Shown piece by piece: positions 7,502 through 52,971 of a stretch of 64,000 nt of DNA; position 1 is the stretch's first letter; every line of letters starts with the position of its first letter. Origin of the DNA: Thalassobacillus devorans (GTDB lineage Bacteria > Bacillota > Bacilli > Bacillales > Halobacillaceae); contig NZ_FXEH01000006.1 in assembly GCF_900176565.1 (NCBI RefSeq), positions 1,116,001 through 1,180,000 of the forward strand, given 5' to 3'. Under the pieces are notes generated by a model. The model did not search any database and was not told the origin of the DNA. It saw only the letters and a list, made by a program, of their open reading frames with translations. Position numbers and translations under genes: made by a program.

Positions 7502-8428
7502 GTGATAATCGATGCGCACTGTGATGTGTTATGGAAATTATGGGAAAAGAAGGTTGATTTCTATGATAGCGAACAACTCCGCTTTAATTATAGGAAGTGG
7601 AAACAAAGTGATATCAAAGTACAGTGTTTCGCTATCTTTGTACCAGAGGAAGTAAAAGAAGAATCACAATTCAGCGTGGCTCTTGAAATGGTGTCTATTT
7701 TTTTTGAACAAATAGTCGCACCTTATGATGATGTGAAGTTCATTAGTAACAGGCAAGATTTATTAAATTTAAAAGCGCATGAAAAAGGAGCAATATTGAC
7801 ACTGGAGGGCTGTCACTCGATTGGGGCAGATATCCATAAACTGAAGGCATTAGTCCGGATGGGGGTACGTATCGTCGGACTTACATGGAATCAGGCTAAC
7901 GCCGTCTGTGATGGCATAGAAGAAGAACGAGGTGCCGGGTTATCTTCTTTTGGGAAGGAAGTAGTTCATTACTTGAACAAAGAACAGATTTGGATCGATC
8001 TCTCCCATATATCCTATCAGGGGTTTTGGGATGTTATGGACATAGGTGATTATCCCATGGCTTCCCATTCAAATGTTTTTCAGATTGCACCTCATATCCG
8101 TAACCTGGATGACTCCCAGGTACAGGCTTTGATTGACTGCGACAGTTGGATAGGAATCACTTTTGTACCAGAATTCATTAATGGAAGAAAAGTGGCTCAC
8201 AGGCAGGAAATCGTCAGGCACGTAGAGTACATAGTAGCTATGGGAGGTGAATCCGTTCTGGGGTTCGGTTCAGATTTCGAAGGGACGGAAGATGAAGTCA
8301 TCGGGTTGAAAGATATAATGGATTATAAGTTTCTGATTAATGACCTTTGTCACAGTCAAACGAGGTCAACTATGCAAAAATTAAGCTGTAAGAACTTTGT
8401 CGACAAATTCCCGCGGATCCGGAATTGA
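7502..8428 (+). CDS. Membrane dipeptidase-like peptidase, M19 family
   Basis: 308-residue zinc peptidase of the renal-dipeptidase family, predicted to hydrolyse dipeptides (often L,D or D,D pairs). Metal and active-site motifs in order: DAHCD near the N-terminus (HxD), LEGCHSIG with the bridging Glu, DLSH, ASHSN, and GSDFEG near the C-terminus. No signal peptide is seen, so it is probably cytoplasmic. I chose GTG 7502 because GGAAGGGAG precedes it and the protein then starts two residues before IDAHCD; the TTG at 7454 lacks a ribosome site. Other Bacillaceae carry this gene between spoVS and korA (from memory). Confidence 0.88.
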   Translation: MIIDAHCDVLWKLWEKKVDFYDSEQLRFNYRKWKQSDIKVQCFAIFVPEEVKEESQFSVALEMVSIFFEQIVAPYDDVKFISNRQDLLNLKAHEKGAILTLEGCHSIGADIHKLKALVRMGVRIVGLTWNQANAVCDGIEEERGAGLSSFGKEVVHYLNKEQIWIDLSHISYQGFWDVMDIGDYPMASHSNVFQIAPHIRNLDDSQVQALIDCDSWIGITFVPEFINGRKVAHRQEIVRHVEYIVAMGGESVLGFGSDFEGTEDEVIGLKDIMDYKFLINDLCHSQTRSTMQKLSCKNFVDKFPRIRN

Positions 8429-49182: not shown

Positions 49183-49723
49183 TAAATTTTTTTTGAAGCC
49201 ATTAACTTTTGACAACTTGAAGACTATCTTTGAATGGAGAAACTCAGAAAGGATCAAATCTCTCATGTATACAAACCATAATATTACATGGGAAGAGCAT
49301 ATACGATGGTTCCATAAAGTAAATAAAAGCTCCAGTGATTTAGTGTGGGTATTATATGATGTGAATTCACCATTAGGGTTAGTCAGTTTTTCTGATATAA
49401 ACAAGGAGCATTCACGGTGTTTTTGGGGCTTTTATATTGGGGAAGAAAAAGCTCCGAAGGGAGCAGGTACAATCATGGGTGTTTTGGCATTGGACAAAAT
49501 TTTCCAGGAGTCCGGGATGAACAAAGTGTGTGCTGAAGTTATCGATTCCAATTCAGGGAGTATCCGATATCACAAAAAGTTAGGCTTTGAACAGGAAGGA
49601 GTTTTAGCCCAGCATGTCTGGAAAGACAATCAATTTAAAGATGTGATTCGGATGGCCTTATTCAATGACAAATGGCAGAAAGTAAGAACTGGACTAGTTA
49701 ACATCCAAGAAAGGGGTAATTGA
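49175..49723 (+). CDS. pseH: UDP-4-amino-sugar N-acetyltransferase, PseH-like (GNAT)
   Basis: 182 residues, GNAT fold: WRNSERIKSLMYTN, WVLYDVNSPLGLVSF, and the acetyl-CoA region EKAPKGAGTIMG with YHKKLGFEQEG near the C-terminus. Matches the PseH/SpsD role of acetylating the C4 amino group made by PseC. ATG 49175 lies inside the end of pseG with GGGGGAAGC upstream. Ends on the pseI start (TGATG). Confidence 0.87.
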   Translation: MNNKFFLKPLTFDNLKTIFEWRNSERIKSLMYTNHNITWEEHIRWFHKVNKSSSDLVWVLYDVNSPLGLVSFSDINKEHSRCFWGFYIGEEKAPKGAGTIMGVLALDKIFQESGMNKVCAEVIDSNSGSIRYHKKLGFEQEGVLAQHVWKDNQFKDVIRMALFNDKWQKVRTGLVNIQERGN

Positions 49724-50772
49724 TGAGCGATATTATTATTGATGGGAAAATAATAGGCAGGGATCATTATCCCTTTATTATTGCGGAAATGTCGGGGAAC
49801 CATAACCAGTCCTTGTCCCGTGCCTTGAAAATCGTAGAAGCTGCAGCAAATGCTGGGGTTGATGCTGTCAAACTTCAAACTTACACTCCAGATACAATGA
49901 CTTTAAATGAAAAAAAAGATGATTTCACTGTCAAAGATTCAAAAAGCCTGTGGAGAAATAAAACACTCTATGAGCTGTATCAGGAAGCATATACTCCGTG
50001 GGATTGGCACAAGGTTATCTTTGAACGCTGTAAAGAATTAGGACTGACTGCTTTCAGCACTCCATTTGATGAGAGTGCTGTAGATTTTCTAGAATCCTTT
50101 AATGTTCCTTGCTACAAAATAGCCTCCTTTGAGAACACTGATTTGCCGTTAATCAGAAAAGTTGCAAAAACAGGTAAGCCCATCATCCTTTCTACGGGGA
50201 TGTGTTCAGTTGCTGAAATAGAAGATTCAGTAGCTGCTGCCCGTGCAGCAGGCTGTGAGGAACTGATTTTATTGAAATGCACCAGCAACTATCCGGCTTC
50301 TCCTAAAGACTCCAATATTCTCACTATTCCGCATATGAAAGAATTGTTTCAATGCCCTACCGGTTTGTCTGATCACACGATGGGAAATGGAGTAGCTGTA
50401 GCAAGCGTAGCCTTGGGAGGTACAGTTATCGAAAAACATTTCACGTTATCACGCAGCGAAGGAGGAGTAGATGCAGCATTTTCACTAGAGCCGGAGGAGA
50501 TGTCCGCTTTGGTAACTGAAACCAGAAGGGCGTGGGAAGCTCTAGGAAAGGTCGCATATGGTGTAACAGAAGCAGAAAAGTCTTCAAAACAGTATCGTCG
50601 TTCTTTATATATTGTAAAAAACTTAAAGAAAGGAGACCGTTTAACAAAAGAAAACATGAAAATTATTAGACCCGGTTATGGTCTTCCCCCCAAATATTAC
50701 GATGTTCTTTTAGGGAAAAAAATTATACGAGACGTAAAAAAAGGATCTCCTCTTAATTGGGATTTGATTTAA
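49723..50772 (+). CDS. pseI: Pseudaminic acid synthase, PseI/SpsE-like
   Basis: 349 residues. NeuB domain (about 10-270: IIAEMSGNHNQSLSRAL, VKLQTYTPD, IASFENTDLPLI, STGMCSVAEI, GLSDHTMGNG, EKHFTLSRS) followed by an antifreeze-like SAF domain (about 290-349: RSLYIVKNLKKGD). Condenses PEP with the altrose-derived sugar to pseudaminic acid. The AEMSGNHN spelling favours PseI over sialic-acid NeuB. Last gene of the operon. Confidence 0.92.
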   Translation: MSDIIIDGKIIGRDHYPFIIAEMSGNHNQSLSRALKIVEAAANAGVDAVKLQTYTPDTMTLNEKKDDFTVKDSKSLWRNKTLYELYQEAYTPWDWHKVIFERCKELGLTAFSTPFDESAVDFLESFNVPCYKIASFENTDLPLIRKVAKTGKPIILSTGMCSVAEIEDSVAAARAAGCEELILLKCTSNYPASPKDSNILTIPHMKELFQCPTGLSDHTMGNGVAVASVALGGTVIEKHFTLSRSEGGVDAAFSLEPEEMSALVTETRRAWEALGKVAYGVTEAEKSSKQYRRSLYIVKNLKKGDRLTKENMKIIRPGYGLPPKYYDVLLGKKIIRDVKKGSPLNWDLI

Positions 50773-50907
50773 AAATGTATTAATGTTAGTGAAAATAACT
50801 GTCCATATTATGGGCTCCAGTTCAAAATTAGCGTTTCTTATAATTATTCTAGGGTTATAGGGTTTGGTATTCCTGTACGGTAAATCATTCAGTATTTAAT
50901 ACAAAAC

Positions 50908-50951
50908 AAAAAGGACAATCACCGCTATTAGTATTCGGTGGTTGTCCTTTT
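50908..50951. terminator. Bidirectional terminator between pseI and lexA
   Basis: AAAAAGGACAATCACCG and CGGTGGTTGTCCTTTT, with A/T runs on both sides. The 135 bp between pseI and this hairpin carry nothing I can assign. Confidence 0.85.
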
Positions 50952-50992
50952 AACCTCATTTATTATTGACACTTATAATAAGGGAGGGGGTA

Positions 50993-51616
50993 CTAATGGA
51001 TCACCCGGTATAATCCCACTACTTTACCAAGGATAGATACATCCTGGAGAATGATCGGATCCATCGTGGCATTTTCAGGCTGCAGACGGATATGGTTTTT
51101 TTCTTTGAAAAAACGTTTGACCGTAGCTTCCTCGTCTTCTGTCATCGCAACGACAATTTCGCCATTTTGAGCGGTTGGCGTCTGTTTCACGATAACCATA
51201 TCTCCATCTAATATACCAGCTTCAATCATACTTTCTCCTTCGACTACAAGGACGAACGTATTTTCTTCTCCGCCGGCCAGGTTTTCCGGCAGCGGCACAT
51301 ATTCTTCGATATTTTCAATTGCTGTAATAGGAAAGCCGGCCGTTACTTTACCGATTACCGGTGCATAGGCGGCTTCGCTTCTTGGGATATTTTGTTCTTC
51401 TTCTAGTTCTAACACTTCAATTGCGCGAGGCTTTGTTGGGTCCCTTCGGATAAAACCTTTTTTCTCTAACCTTGCAAGGTGGCCGTGGACAGTGGAACTG
51501 GAGGCCAGTCCAACAGCCTGTCCGATTTCGCGTACAGAAGGTGGATAACCTTTTGCCAGTACTTCTTCTTTTATGAATTTCAATATTTCCTGTTGCCGCT
51601 TCGATAATTTACTCAT
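50993..51616 (-). CDS. lexA: SOS repressor LexA
   Basis: 207 residues. Winged HTH (about 1-65: [22 protein letters not shown]), self-cleavage bond A93-G94 in KVTAGFP, catalytic S129 in EGESMIEAG and K167 in [11 protein letters not shown] 51616 gives the normal length; an in-frame start 123 bases upstream would cross its own promoter. Divergent from the SOS miniprotein/yneB operon. Confidence 0.98.
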
Positions 51617-51652
51617 ATAAGCACACCTCGTACATATGTTTTTATTAACCAC

Positions 51653-51691
51653 ATTGTACCATGCTGATTTCCACAATACAAACATTCGTTC
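51653..51691 (-). promoter_or_regulatory. lexA promoter with LexA box
   Basis: Minus strand TTGTAT (51681-51676), 17 bp, TACAAT (51658-51653). The box GAACGAATGTTT (51691-51680) overlaps the upstream edge of the -35, one mismatch from GAAC-N4-GTTC: autoregulation. Confidence 0.75.
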
Positions 51692-51700
51692 GAGTTTTTC

Positions 51701-51755
51701 TTGACAAGAACAATTGTTCGTATATAATGAAATTAGCAAATGCGAACAAAAGTTC
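51701..51755 (+). promoter_or_regulatory. SOS promoter of the miniprotein-yneB operon, two perfect LexA boxes
   Basis: TTGACA (51701-51706), 16 bp, TATAAT (51723-51728). GAACAATTGTTC (51708-51719) fills the spacer and GAACAAAAGTTC (51744-51755) lies downstream of the start point; both are perfect GAAC-N4-GTTC. This predicts tight LexA repression and strong induction by DNA damage. Confidence 0.88.
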
Positions 51756-51772
51756 TGTATGGAGGGGTTAAA

Positions 51773-51868
51773 ATGTTTGATAAACTATCTAAGTTGGACA
51801 TGACCTATATTATTCTTTTCATTTTGAGTCTGGCATTCTTATATGCTGCTATGACGATCAGCAGCTGA
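51773..51868 (+). CDS. SOS-controlled 31-aa single-pass membrane miniprotein at the yneA position
   Basis: ATG 51773 with GGAGGGG seven to eight bases upstream; stop TGA 51866-51868. A short amphipathic, Lys/Asp-containing N-terminus ([10 protein letters not shown]) is followed by one hydrophobic helix ([19 protein letters not shown]) and SS. It is the first gene after the SOS promoter, where B. subtilis has yneA, a ~100-residue LysM-type division inhibitor. No LysM is present here. Single-helix SOS-induced division inhibitors of similar size are known (Caulobacter SidA, 29 aa). Function as a division inhibitor is inference from position, regulation and topology. Confidence 0.75.
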
Positions 51869-51899
51869 TAGTGGGTCTATAGTTTATTATCCGTATTAA

Positions 51900-52580
<681 letters not shown>

Positions 52581-52590
52581 TATTATATAG

Positions 52591-52621
52591 AAGACAAGGG
52601 TCATAGGACACTTGTCTTTTT
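52591..52621 (+). terminator. yneB terminator
   Basis: AAGACAAG and CTTGTCTT arms with an internal GTC/GAC, then TTTTT. Confidence 0.8.
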
Positions 52622-52722
52622 AGCACTTAGAGAGAAGTTTAGCTACTTATTCCTTTATAAGTATTTGAGGGAACAGAACAGGCTTTTCTTAATTAAGGGC
52701 TCACAAAAAGGAGTGTGTACGC

Positions 52723-52971
52723 ATGTTATCAAAAGAAAAGATTAATCGTATAAACGAATTAGCCAACAAATCAAAAAAAGAATCCCTTACGAAAGCAGAG
52801 AAAGACGAACAGCAGCAATTACGTCAAGAATACCTTGGCAATGTCCGTAAGTCTTTCAAAAACCAACTGAAAAGTATGAAGGTCGTTGATCCAGAAGGAA
52901 ATGACGTTACACCGGAAAAAGTAAAGCGAATGCAGCGTAACGAAAAGAAGCATAAAAACAGTCGTACTTGA
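52723..52971 (+). CDS. ynzC: DUF896 protein YnzC
   Basis: 82 residues; a two-helix N-terminal hairpin (KINRINELANKSKKESLTKAE) followed by a conserved basic tail (VDPEGNDVTPEKVKRMQRN). DUF896 proteins are small cytoplasmic SOS-operon members in Bacillus with no established activity. AAAAGGAGTG precedes the ATG. A terminator separates it here from yneB, so read-through or its own promoter would be needed for SOS control. Confidence 0.93.
   Translation: MLSKEKINRINELANKSKKESLTKAEKDEQQQLRQEYLGNVRKSFKNQLKSMKVVDPEGNDVTPEKVKRMQRNEKKHKNSRT

Follow-up and report, generated by a model that had tools for sequence, protein, structure and literature searches.

In a stretch of 64 kb from the genome of Thalassobacillus devorans, referred to here as the window, the slot between the divergent gene lexA and yneB encodes a miniprotein of 31 residues built around a single membrane helix. 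It is close to certain that this frame is coding and controlled by LexA. From sequence comparison we infer that the miniprotein inhibits cell division, a role that we consider quite probable. The fuller reading, in which it is the SOS-induced division inhibitor of a clade of halophilic Bacillaceae and corresponds to a YneA without the LysM domain, is probable on the whole; whether it acts through FtsW is a point on which we stand evenly divided. Among the open-access papers listed in literature searches, judged by titles and abstract openings, none described a helix-only stand-in for YneA across a large clade, with relatives in prophages, and none dealt with a short YneA or with a yneA in Halobacillus, Oceanobacillus, Virgibacillus or Thalassobacillus.

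The miniprotein gene, its neighbors and its promoter

The miniprotein ORF lies on the forward strand at 51773–51868, from the ATG at 51773 to the TGA at 51866–51868 (stop codon included). A Shine-Dalgarno sequence, GGAGGGG, can be read on the same strand at 51761–51767, 5 nt 5' of the ATG. The encoded protein has a short N-terminus with lysines, an acidic residue (D9), an uncharged helix, and almost nothing outside; residues 10–31 carry no charge. AlphaFold2 places a helix over residues 7–30 with a mean pLDDT of 86.5, a prediction that, for a lone helix, tells only that the segment is helical. The start, the ribosome-binding site and the one-helix frame with a charged N-terminus had been proposed in the initial annotation, and its coordinates and layout are borne out. 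A longer frame of 42 residues could begin at an ATG at 51740. In the genomes of the window's GTDB family, upstream in-frame starts vary or are missing and the 31-codon start is common; the 42-residue version is disfavored because its start precedes the ribosome-binding site and lacks conservation. The window miniprotein has no match over the curated cut-offs of Pfam and NCBIfam and none in PADLOC, so an annotation blank is filled here, and a gene of this kind can easily be overlooked by gene finders. A Pfam scan found no LysM domain in the protein, which is only 31 residues long.

Upstream of the miniprotein gene is lexA, which is transcribed divergently (50993–51616, reverse strand; 207 residues; TIGR00498, E 5.5e-77). 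Downstream, on the forward strand, is the resolvase-like yneB (51921–52580; NF049883, E 4.7e-105), followed by a ynzC-like gene for a DUF896 protein (52723–52971, forward strand; NF002711, E 4.1e-26, below the model cut-off). In B. subtilis, too, a ynzC-like (DUF896) gene comes next after yneB. The miniprotein thus occupies the place of yneA, flanked by divergent lexA and yneB and under LexA boxes, just as had been claimed for it. Its stop codon is 52 nt from yneB, no terminator-like site was found between the two, and yneB is probably in one operon with the miniprotein gene. Just past the 3' end of lexA is a frame of 350 residues (49720–50772, forward strand), which we take to resemble a sialic or pseudaminic acid synthase of the NeuB/PseI type.

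A SigA-type promoter, TTGACA-N16-TATAAT, matches the consensus at 12 of 12 positions at 51701–51728 on the forward strand (–35 at 51701–51706, –10 at 51723–51728), and it is the sole 12/12 match within the 1.8 kb scanned. Two exact GAACN4GTTC sites on the forward strand accompany it. Box 1, GAACAATTGTTC (51708–51719), is in the promoter spacer between the –35 and –10 elements, and box 2, GAACAAAAGTTC (51744–51755), is just 3' of the –10 element. It had been claimed that both boxes are perfect; this holds for the 8-base cores, and against the 14-base consensus CGAACN4GTTYG each box has one mismatch. The claim was also incomplete, as a third box had gone unmentioned: box 3, CGAACGAATGTTTG (given for the minus strand; 51679–51692), is nearest to lexA and has no mismatch to CGAACN4GTTYG.

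The number of boxes by itself is only mildly unusual. There are three exact GAACN4GTTC sites in the whole 64 kb against 0.86 expected, and three or more occurred in 7 of 100 shuffles. The pattern alone is no evidence, because the T. devorans genome contains fewer copies of it (46) than of a reversed control pattern (76); it is the position on the promoter and the conservation that count instead. Placement is indeed informative: two of the three exact sites in the window are 36 bp apart and both are on the miniprotein promoter. As for conservation, at least one exact LexA box is found within 130 bp upstream of the miniprotein in 43 of 43 family loci, a similar promoter is found by pattern match in 41 of the 43, and an AAACN4GTTC counterpart of box 3 is upstream in all 43. 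With this arrangement, LexA would occupy the promoter itself, which is the anatomy expected of a tightly controlled SOS gene.

Distribution of the miniprotein and of YneA

The miniprotein was found in 43 of the 44 genomes of the window's GTDB family, covering all six genera; the sole genome without it is an assembly of about 1000 contigs. The divergent lexA adjoins the miniprotein in 43 of 43 loci, and yneB follows in 42, the other locus being at a contig end. All 42 complete copies have exactly 31 codons. Among 41 distinct coding sequences of the family pN/pS is 0.21, and the median dN/dS over 175 unsaturated pairs is 0.10, a rough value since pS (0.81) is near saturation. Between the window copy and the locus L002, which encodes an identical protein, there are 5 synonymous and 0 nonsynonymous differences. 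In 16 of 16 alignment rows, chosen by hand, M1, F2, K4, S6, D9, T11, F16, S19, L23 and Y24 are invariant. Constant length and invariant residues agree with the dN/dS, and by these comparative measures the frame is real. Conservation of the frame was the point on which the initial annotation had staked its reading, and it came out in favor, with substitutions that prefer synonymous sites and a length that stays at 31 codons. The single-genome scope implied there was too narrow, as the miniprotein is clade-wide.

The same data bear on the idea that the frame is only a leader peptide, whose translation tunes the expression of yneB and does nothing else. The short distance to yneB and the absence of a terminator-like site between the two would suit such a role; purifying selection on the amino acids would be unexpected, as would the prophage and plasmid relatives that are located away from lexA-yneB (see below), and we regard a leader as very improbable.

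Beyond the family, a miniprotein profile run over 397 genomes of the order matched 57. In 49 of them the match falls in the slot between lexA and yneB; 17 of these 49 belong to the window's family, and the remaining 32 are spread over four further GTDB families. The other eight matches are off the slot and are taken as chance, given that the four of them that were read have no lexA or yneB beside them; one, for example, is a frame of 282 residues resembling a transporter. An independent scan with YneB covered named genomes and took the best 80 of 474 relatives, a choice that favors close relatives and overlaps the 397-genome set. All 80 of these slots hold a frame that matches the miniprotein profile with E 5.4e-12 or better; that profile had itself been built partly from the same 80 loci. 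Each slot has at least one exact LexA box, and 79 have a frame of 30–34 residues starting with ATG, the exception without ATG being L197. The slot between lexA and yneB measures 257–325 bp in 79 of the 80 loci and 516 bp in the other. The 80 loci come from one MAG and 17 named genera: Thalassobacillus, Halobacillus, Salimicrobium, Pontibacillus, Sediminibacillus, Virgibacillus, Oceanobacillus, Ornithinibacillus, Gracilibacillus, Terribacillus, Aquibacillus, Salinibacillus, Melghiribacillus, Paraliobacillus, Paucisalibacillus, Lentibacillus and Cerasibacillus.

YneA itself shows the reverse distribution. The YneA model NF010723 scores over its cut-off in 0 of the 44 family genomes versus 265 of 397 in the order, and all it picks up in the family are weak LysM cross-matches that stay below this threshold. 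In the 49 miniprotein genomes its best E-value is 1.3e-12 or worse, below the 60-bit cut-off (for scale, 41.7 bits corresponds to 3e-10 in the search of the 44-genome family). As a control, the model recognized two ordinary YneA proteins with 92 and 98 bits; the window miniprotein and two relatives from the clade gave no match to it. NF010723 is a better test than Pfam LysM because the latter misses, by falling below its cut-off, one of the three ordinary YneA proteins tried. Within this sample, the miniprotein and YneA appear to be mutually exclusive. A full yneA elsewhere in the T. devorans genome was sought among 24 LysM matches; their open frames are of 173–487 residues, none near 100, and every one of them was more than 2 kb away from the exact LexA cores listed. 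Hence neither this genome nor, by NF010723, any of the 44 in the family revealed a full SOS-controlled yneA, the finding that would have told against the original proposal.

Slots in the rest of the order were surveyed at 70 loci, made up of the 30 best YneB matches and 40 loci hand-chosen to cover families, and were labeled by motif pattern and visual judgement. A LysM-bearing YneA of about 100 residues occupies 53 of them, a helix without LysM 11, and the miniprotein one; four hold nothing visible and one is unclassed. Proteins with a helix and a tail without LysM were seen in L244, L278, L279, L280 and L281 (all GTDB family f3), L246 (f6), L257 and L258 (f21), L266 (f34), and L268 (f35). 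It is possible that these proteins are intermediates or other solutions. The slots without a recognizable helix inhibitor are L250 (f10), L259 and L260 (both f22), and L267 (f35); those of L250 and L260 are only about 140–190 bp.

Relationship of the miniprotein to YneA

The initial annotation had left it open whether the protein is a LysM-stripped YneA or non-homologous. A first profile comparison against 15 hand-picked YneA helices scored 36.0, with a shuffled maximum of 27.0. As these 15 rows and six LysM-less rows had been picked partly for resemblance, the comparison was repeated on groups defined by a tree of LexA. On that tree the 39 miniprotein rows all group together in a single clade (support 100/99), and the branches that place the nearest comparison groups have modest support, 81/63 and 84/72. 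The four f3 sister sequences, which have a helix and a non-LysM tail, scored 30.0 (0 of 100 shuffles as high), and f3 together with the LysM-bearing f25 scored 29.7 (0/100). A mixed clade of LysM-bearing and LysM-less proteins (f28, f6, f45, f42, f35 and one f3 row) scored 33.0, again with 0 of 100 shuffles. Farther away, another LysM group (f20, f17, f7, f46) scored 19.8 with 0/100 shuffles and only 39% probability for the match, and for the core LysM group, at 14.8, 24 of 100 shuffles were as high.

It is likely, though not proven, that the miniprotein derives from YneA and has been reduced to the membrane helix. Descent is held to be likely because the match fades with distance, and it is held back by the shortness of the hydrophobic stretch compared and by the modest support for the nearest branches. 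Another origin would have a foreign helix, unrelated to YneA, take the place of YneA in a single event in the clade's ancestor, which would be compatible with division inhibition just as well. The single origin on the LexA tree agrees with such an event, and so does the comparison with all 51 YneA N-termini pooled, which scored 20.0 and is not significant (7 of 150 shuffles as high). An unrelated helix would hardly be expected, however, to match the neighboring groups on the LexA tree, with and without LysM, better than all shuffles and to lose this match with distance as descent predicts; we consider a foreign origin unlikely. Of the two options left at the outset, then, the LysM-stripped one is favored by the profiles of the nearest lineages (0/100 shuffles), and the pooled YneA comparison gives it little help.

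Elsewhere on the LexA tree, the label of a helix without LysM requires six changes, at least five of which are forced by well-supported branches. From these six changes, and the five that are forced, it can be argued that LysM was lost repeatedly; the outer domain has probably been lost several times, once down to 34 residues (L272). The 34-residue, helix-only protein in the slot of L272 (f42) is unlike the miniprotein and like the YneA helix of a neighbor, L273 in f45; it is likely to be an independent reduction, to judge from its resemblance.

Proposed mode of action and relatives on prophages and a plasmid

Small SOS-induced membrane inhibitors encoded beside lexA are a known class (described in PMC6851548). 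By its anatomy the miniprotein would fall into this functional class (YneA, SosA, SidA, ChiZ, DivS), whose genes in Gram-positives are as a rule next to lexA: it is a single-helix protein encoded beside lexA and, judged by its boxes, probably bound by LexA at its promoter. With the YneA of B. subtilis (NF010723) it shares the slot between divergent lexA and yneB, the LexA boxes, and one membrane helix at the N-terminus that is immediately preceded by an acidic residue (D9 in the miniprotein), and its helix profile matches the YneA-slot proteins of the nearest lineages. Unlike YneA, it has 31 rather than about 100 residues, lacks LysM or any other outer domain, and is rejected by the YneA model. 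By the criteria of the YneA family it is therefore no YneA, and yet it probably works like YneA or SidA.

The following mechanism may be proposed. Judged from the conserved promoter and box anatomy, LexA would repress the promoter, and DNA damage would lift the repression. The 31-residue protein would then be made, as the conserved reading frame suggests, and would span the membrane once, with its charged N-terminus on the inner side and a few residues protruding on the outer side. If it descends from the YneA helix, the helix would dock, within the membrane, onto the synthase of septal peptidoglycan, for which FtsW is the likeliest candidate. Docking alone would stall septal wall synthesis in the manner of SidA, the helix having gained the role of LysM.

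Studies of other inhibitors speak on both sides of this mechanism. In B. subtilis, the YneA helix is reported to be necessary and sufficient for septal localization and to bind transmembrane helix 7 (TM7) of FtsW, with K5, E6, F10, V11 and F14 being the residues that matter; YneA without LysM is described as localizing and binding FtsW and as giving no division block (PMC13396833). In Staphylococcus, SosA (77 residues) resembles the miniprotein in being divergent from lexA, LexA-controlled, and equipped with a membrane helix and no LysM; it differs in that its helix (predicted at residues 10–30) is followed by an outer segment, almost absent from the miniprotein, in which conserved residues are reported to be needed for inhibition (PMC6851548). 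SosA lacking its 30 or 40 C-terminal residues is reported to be inactive, the 40-residue truncation probably still being in the membrane (PMC6851548). In the two Gram-positives tested, then, the bare helix is inactive, which counts against a self-sufficient helix in the miniprotein, and a simple transfer of function is doubtful because both the LysM-less YneA and the truncated SosA are inactive. On the other side, SidA of Caulobacter crescentus, with 29 residues, is similar in size, single helix and SOS control and is reported to block division through FtsW (PMC4211646). SidA is likened here by description; it belongs to another phylum and is predicted to be on the opposite side of FtsW TM7 (PMC13396833). 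Either the helix has come to suffice by itself, as it does in SidA, or the checkpoint has changed, and we would prefer the reading in which the helix acts alone over one in which it merely docks.

FtsW sequences were compared at three residues that have been tied to resistance against YneA in B. subtilis. In the FtsWs of the clade (n = 3), Pro206 (B. subtilis numbering) is kept in 3 of 3, and Val204 and Leu196 are replaced. The set consisted of three clade genomes and one f43 genome, whose numbering fits that of B. subtilis, and is too small for an analysis of co-evolution; in two further genomes (G025 and G134) no FtsW was among the matches at the threshold used. FtsW was picked among the SEDS proteins by a tree and by a neighboring gene, which we take to be pyc-like.

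A helix that reaches FtsW without blocking synthesis could instead be an adaptor that marks, slows or recruits, for example for a partner that supplies the outer part. Such behavior is what was measured for LysM-less YneA in B. subtilis, according to PMC13396833, and Pro206 is kept in all three clade FtsWs. A second large gene for the partner would not fit into the slot, whose length at the 80 named loci is 257–325 bp apart from a single one of 516 bp, and the recurrence of LysM-less forms suggests that the outer domain is dispensable; we regard the adaptor as rather improbable.

The target may also lie outside the divisome. TisB is an SOS-induced single-helix peptide, amphipathic and under antisense or structured RNA control. 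DinQ is also reported to be an SOS-induced single-helix peptide (PMC3567139). A protein of this kind would depolarize the membrane and slow growth, and the size, single helix and LexA control of the miniprotein fit. Its helix is uncharged over residues 10–31, in contrast to the amphipathic TisB, and no Rfam family matched in 50900–52700 of the window, where an undescribed RNA is possible, so that neither the charged or amphipathic helix nor the antisense or structured RNA that define the TisB/DinQ class was seen. The location between lexA and yneB, in the place of yneA, and the match to YneA-slot helices of neighboring lineages point the same way, and we hold this reading to be more doubtful still than the adaptor.

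If division inhibition by the helix is accepted, its removal after repair is a further matter. CtpA and YlbL are reported to clear YneA in B. subtilis (PMC6051672). The miniprotein offers almost no outer segment to cut, and its removal would need another route. In the current B. subtilis model, YneA must bind the new glycan strand via LysM to stop FtsW. A clade that keeps the helix alone, at unchanged length, is a natural test of this LysM-dependence. If the miniprotein works, membrane contact alone can inhibit, and it would rank with the smallest proteins known to regulate a septal peptidoglycan synthase. The series from LysM, through a tail without LysM, to a bare helix also provides ready-made constructs for the control of FtsW.

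The relatives of the miniprotein outside the lexA slot, like the LysM-less forms elsewhere, had been missed by the initial annotation. Ten family loci encode one, each within an early operon of prophage type (L067, L069, L070, L071, L072–L076 and L078). In L071 it occupies 7995–8090 on the reverse strand and starts inside the 3' end of a phrog_6048-like small gene; all ten relatives overlap the 3' end of a small gene located downstream of phage-type CI-like and HTH regulators. The consensus of nine of the ten is MRKxxxLDVxYLxLFIxSxxFLYxAxIxx. No exact LexA box was found at the ten loci from 3.5 kb upstream to 0.5 kb downstream. The L071 prophage adjoins a groEL-like gene and contains integrase, metalloprotease, repressor, anti-repressor, RecT, SbcC and DnaD-like genes. 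The other nine loci all match its CI-like repressor, perhaps partly as general HTH matches, and in three of them the 16 kb segment compared also contains an integrase match. The L071 relative matches phrog_12200, a family of unknown function, with E 1e-4. A profile of the phage relatives matched 37 of the 397 genomes, all in miniprotein-bearing families; most of the matches are lexA-slot copies and only three are prophage copies, which were already known. Prophage relatives are so far found only in hosts that bear the miniprotein.

The early operon of a prophage would be a natural place for an inhibitor of host division, the putative function of these relatives, and their presence suggests that phages exploit the same contact. 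An analogue is Gp11 of the Staphylococcus phage PhiNM1, a small membrane protein from an early gene that is reported to block host division; it is likened by description, and its reported targets are MurG and DivIC (PMC11237401). Taken together, the most far-reaching version of the proposal, which we offer tentatively, is that the SOS division checkpoint of the whole clade has shrunk to a self-sufficient helix of 31 residues blocking the septal synthase without touching peptidoglycan, that LysM was lost several more times in related lineages, and that temperate phages of the clade carry relatives without LexA boxes in early operons to halt host division on induction.

Phage records searched with the miniprotein consensus or the L071 relative gave no match. 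The regulator upstream of the prophage relatives is shared by A118-like Listeria phages (27 records, at less than 30% identity). In phage A118, the one from which this short protein was compared, gp46 (L288:2692–2778) has 28 residues and one helix and follows the same kind of regulator; its charges are at the opposite end and the likeness is unconvincing. On a plasmid of Halobacillus litoralis, a relative of the miniprotein overlaps the end of ardA (L289:2501–2587, equal to NZ_CP129017.1 42169–42255 and the same as L077), where only ArdA is annotated.
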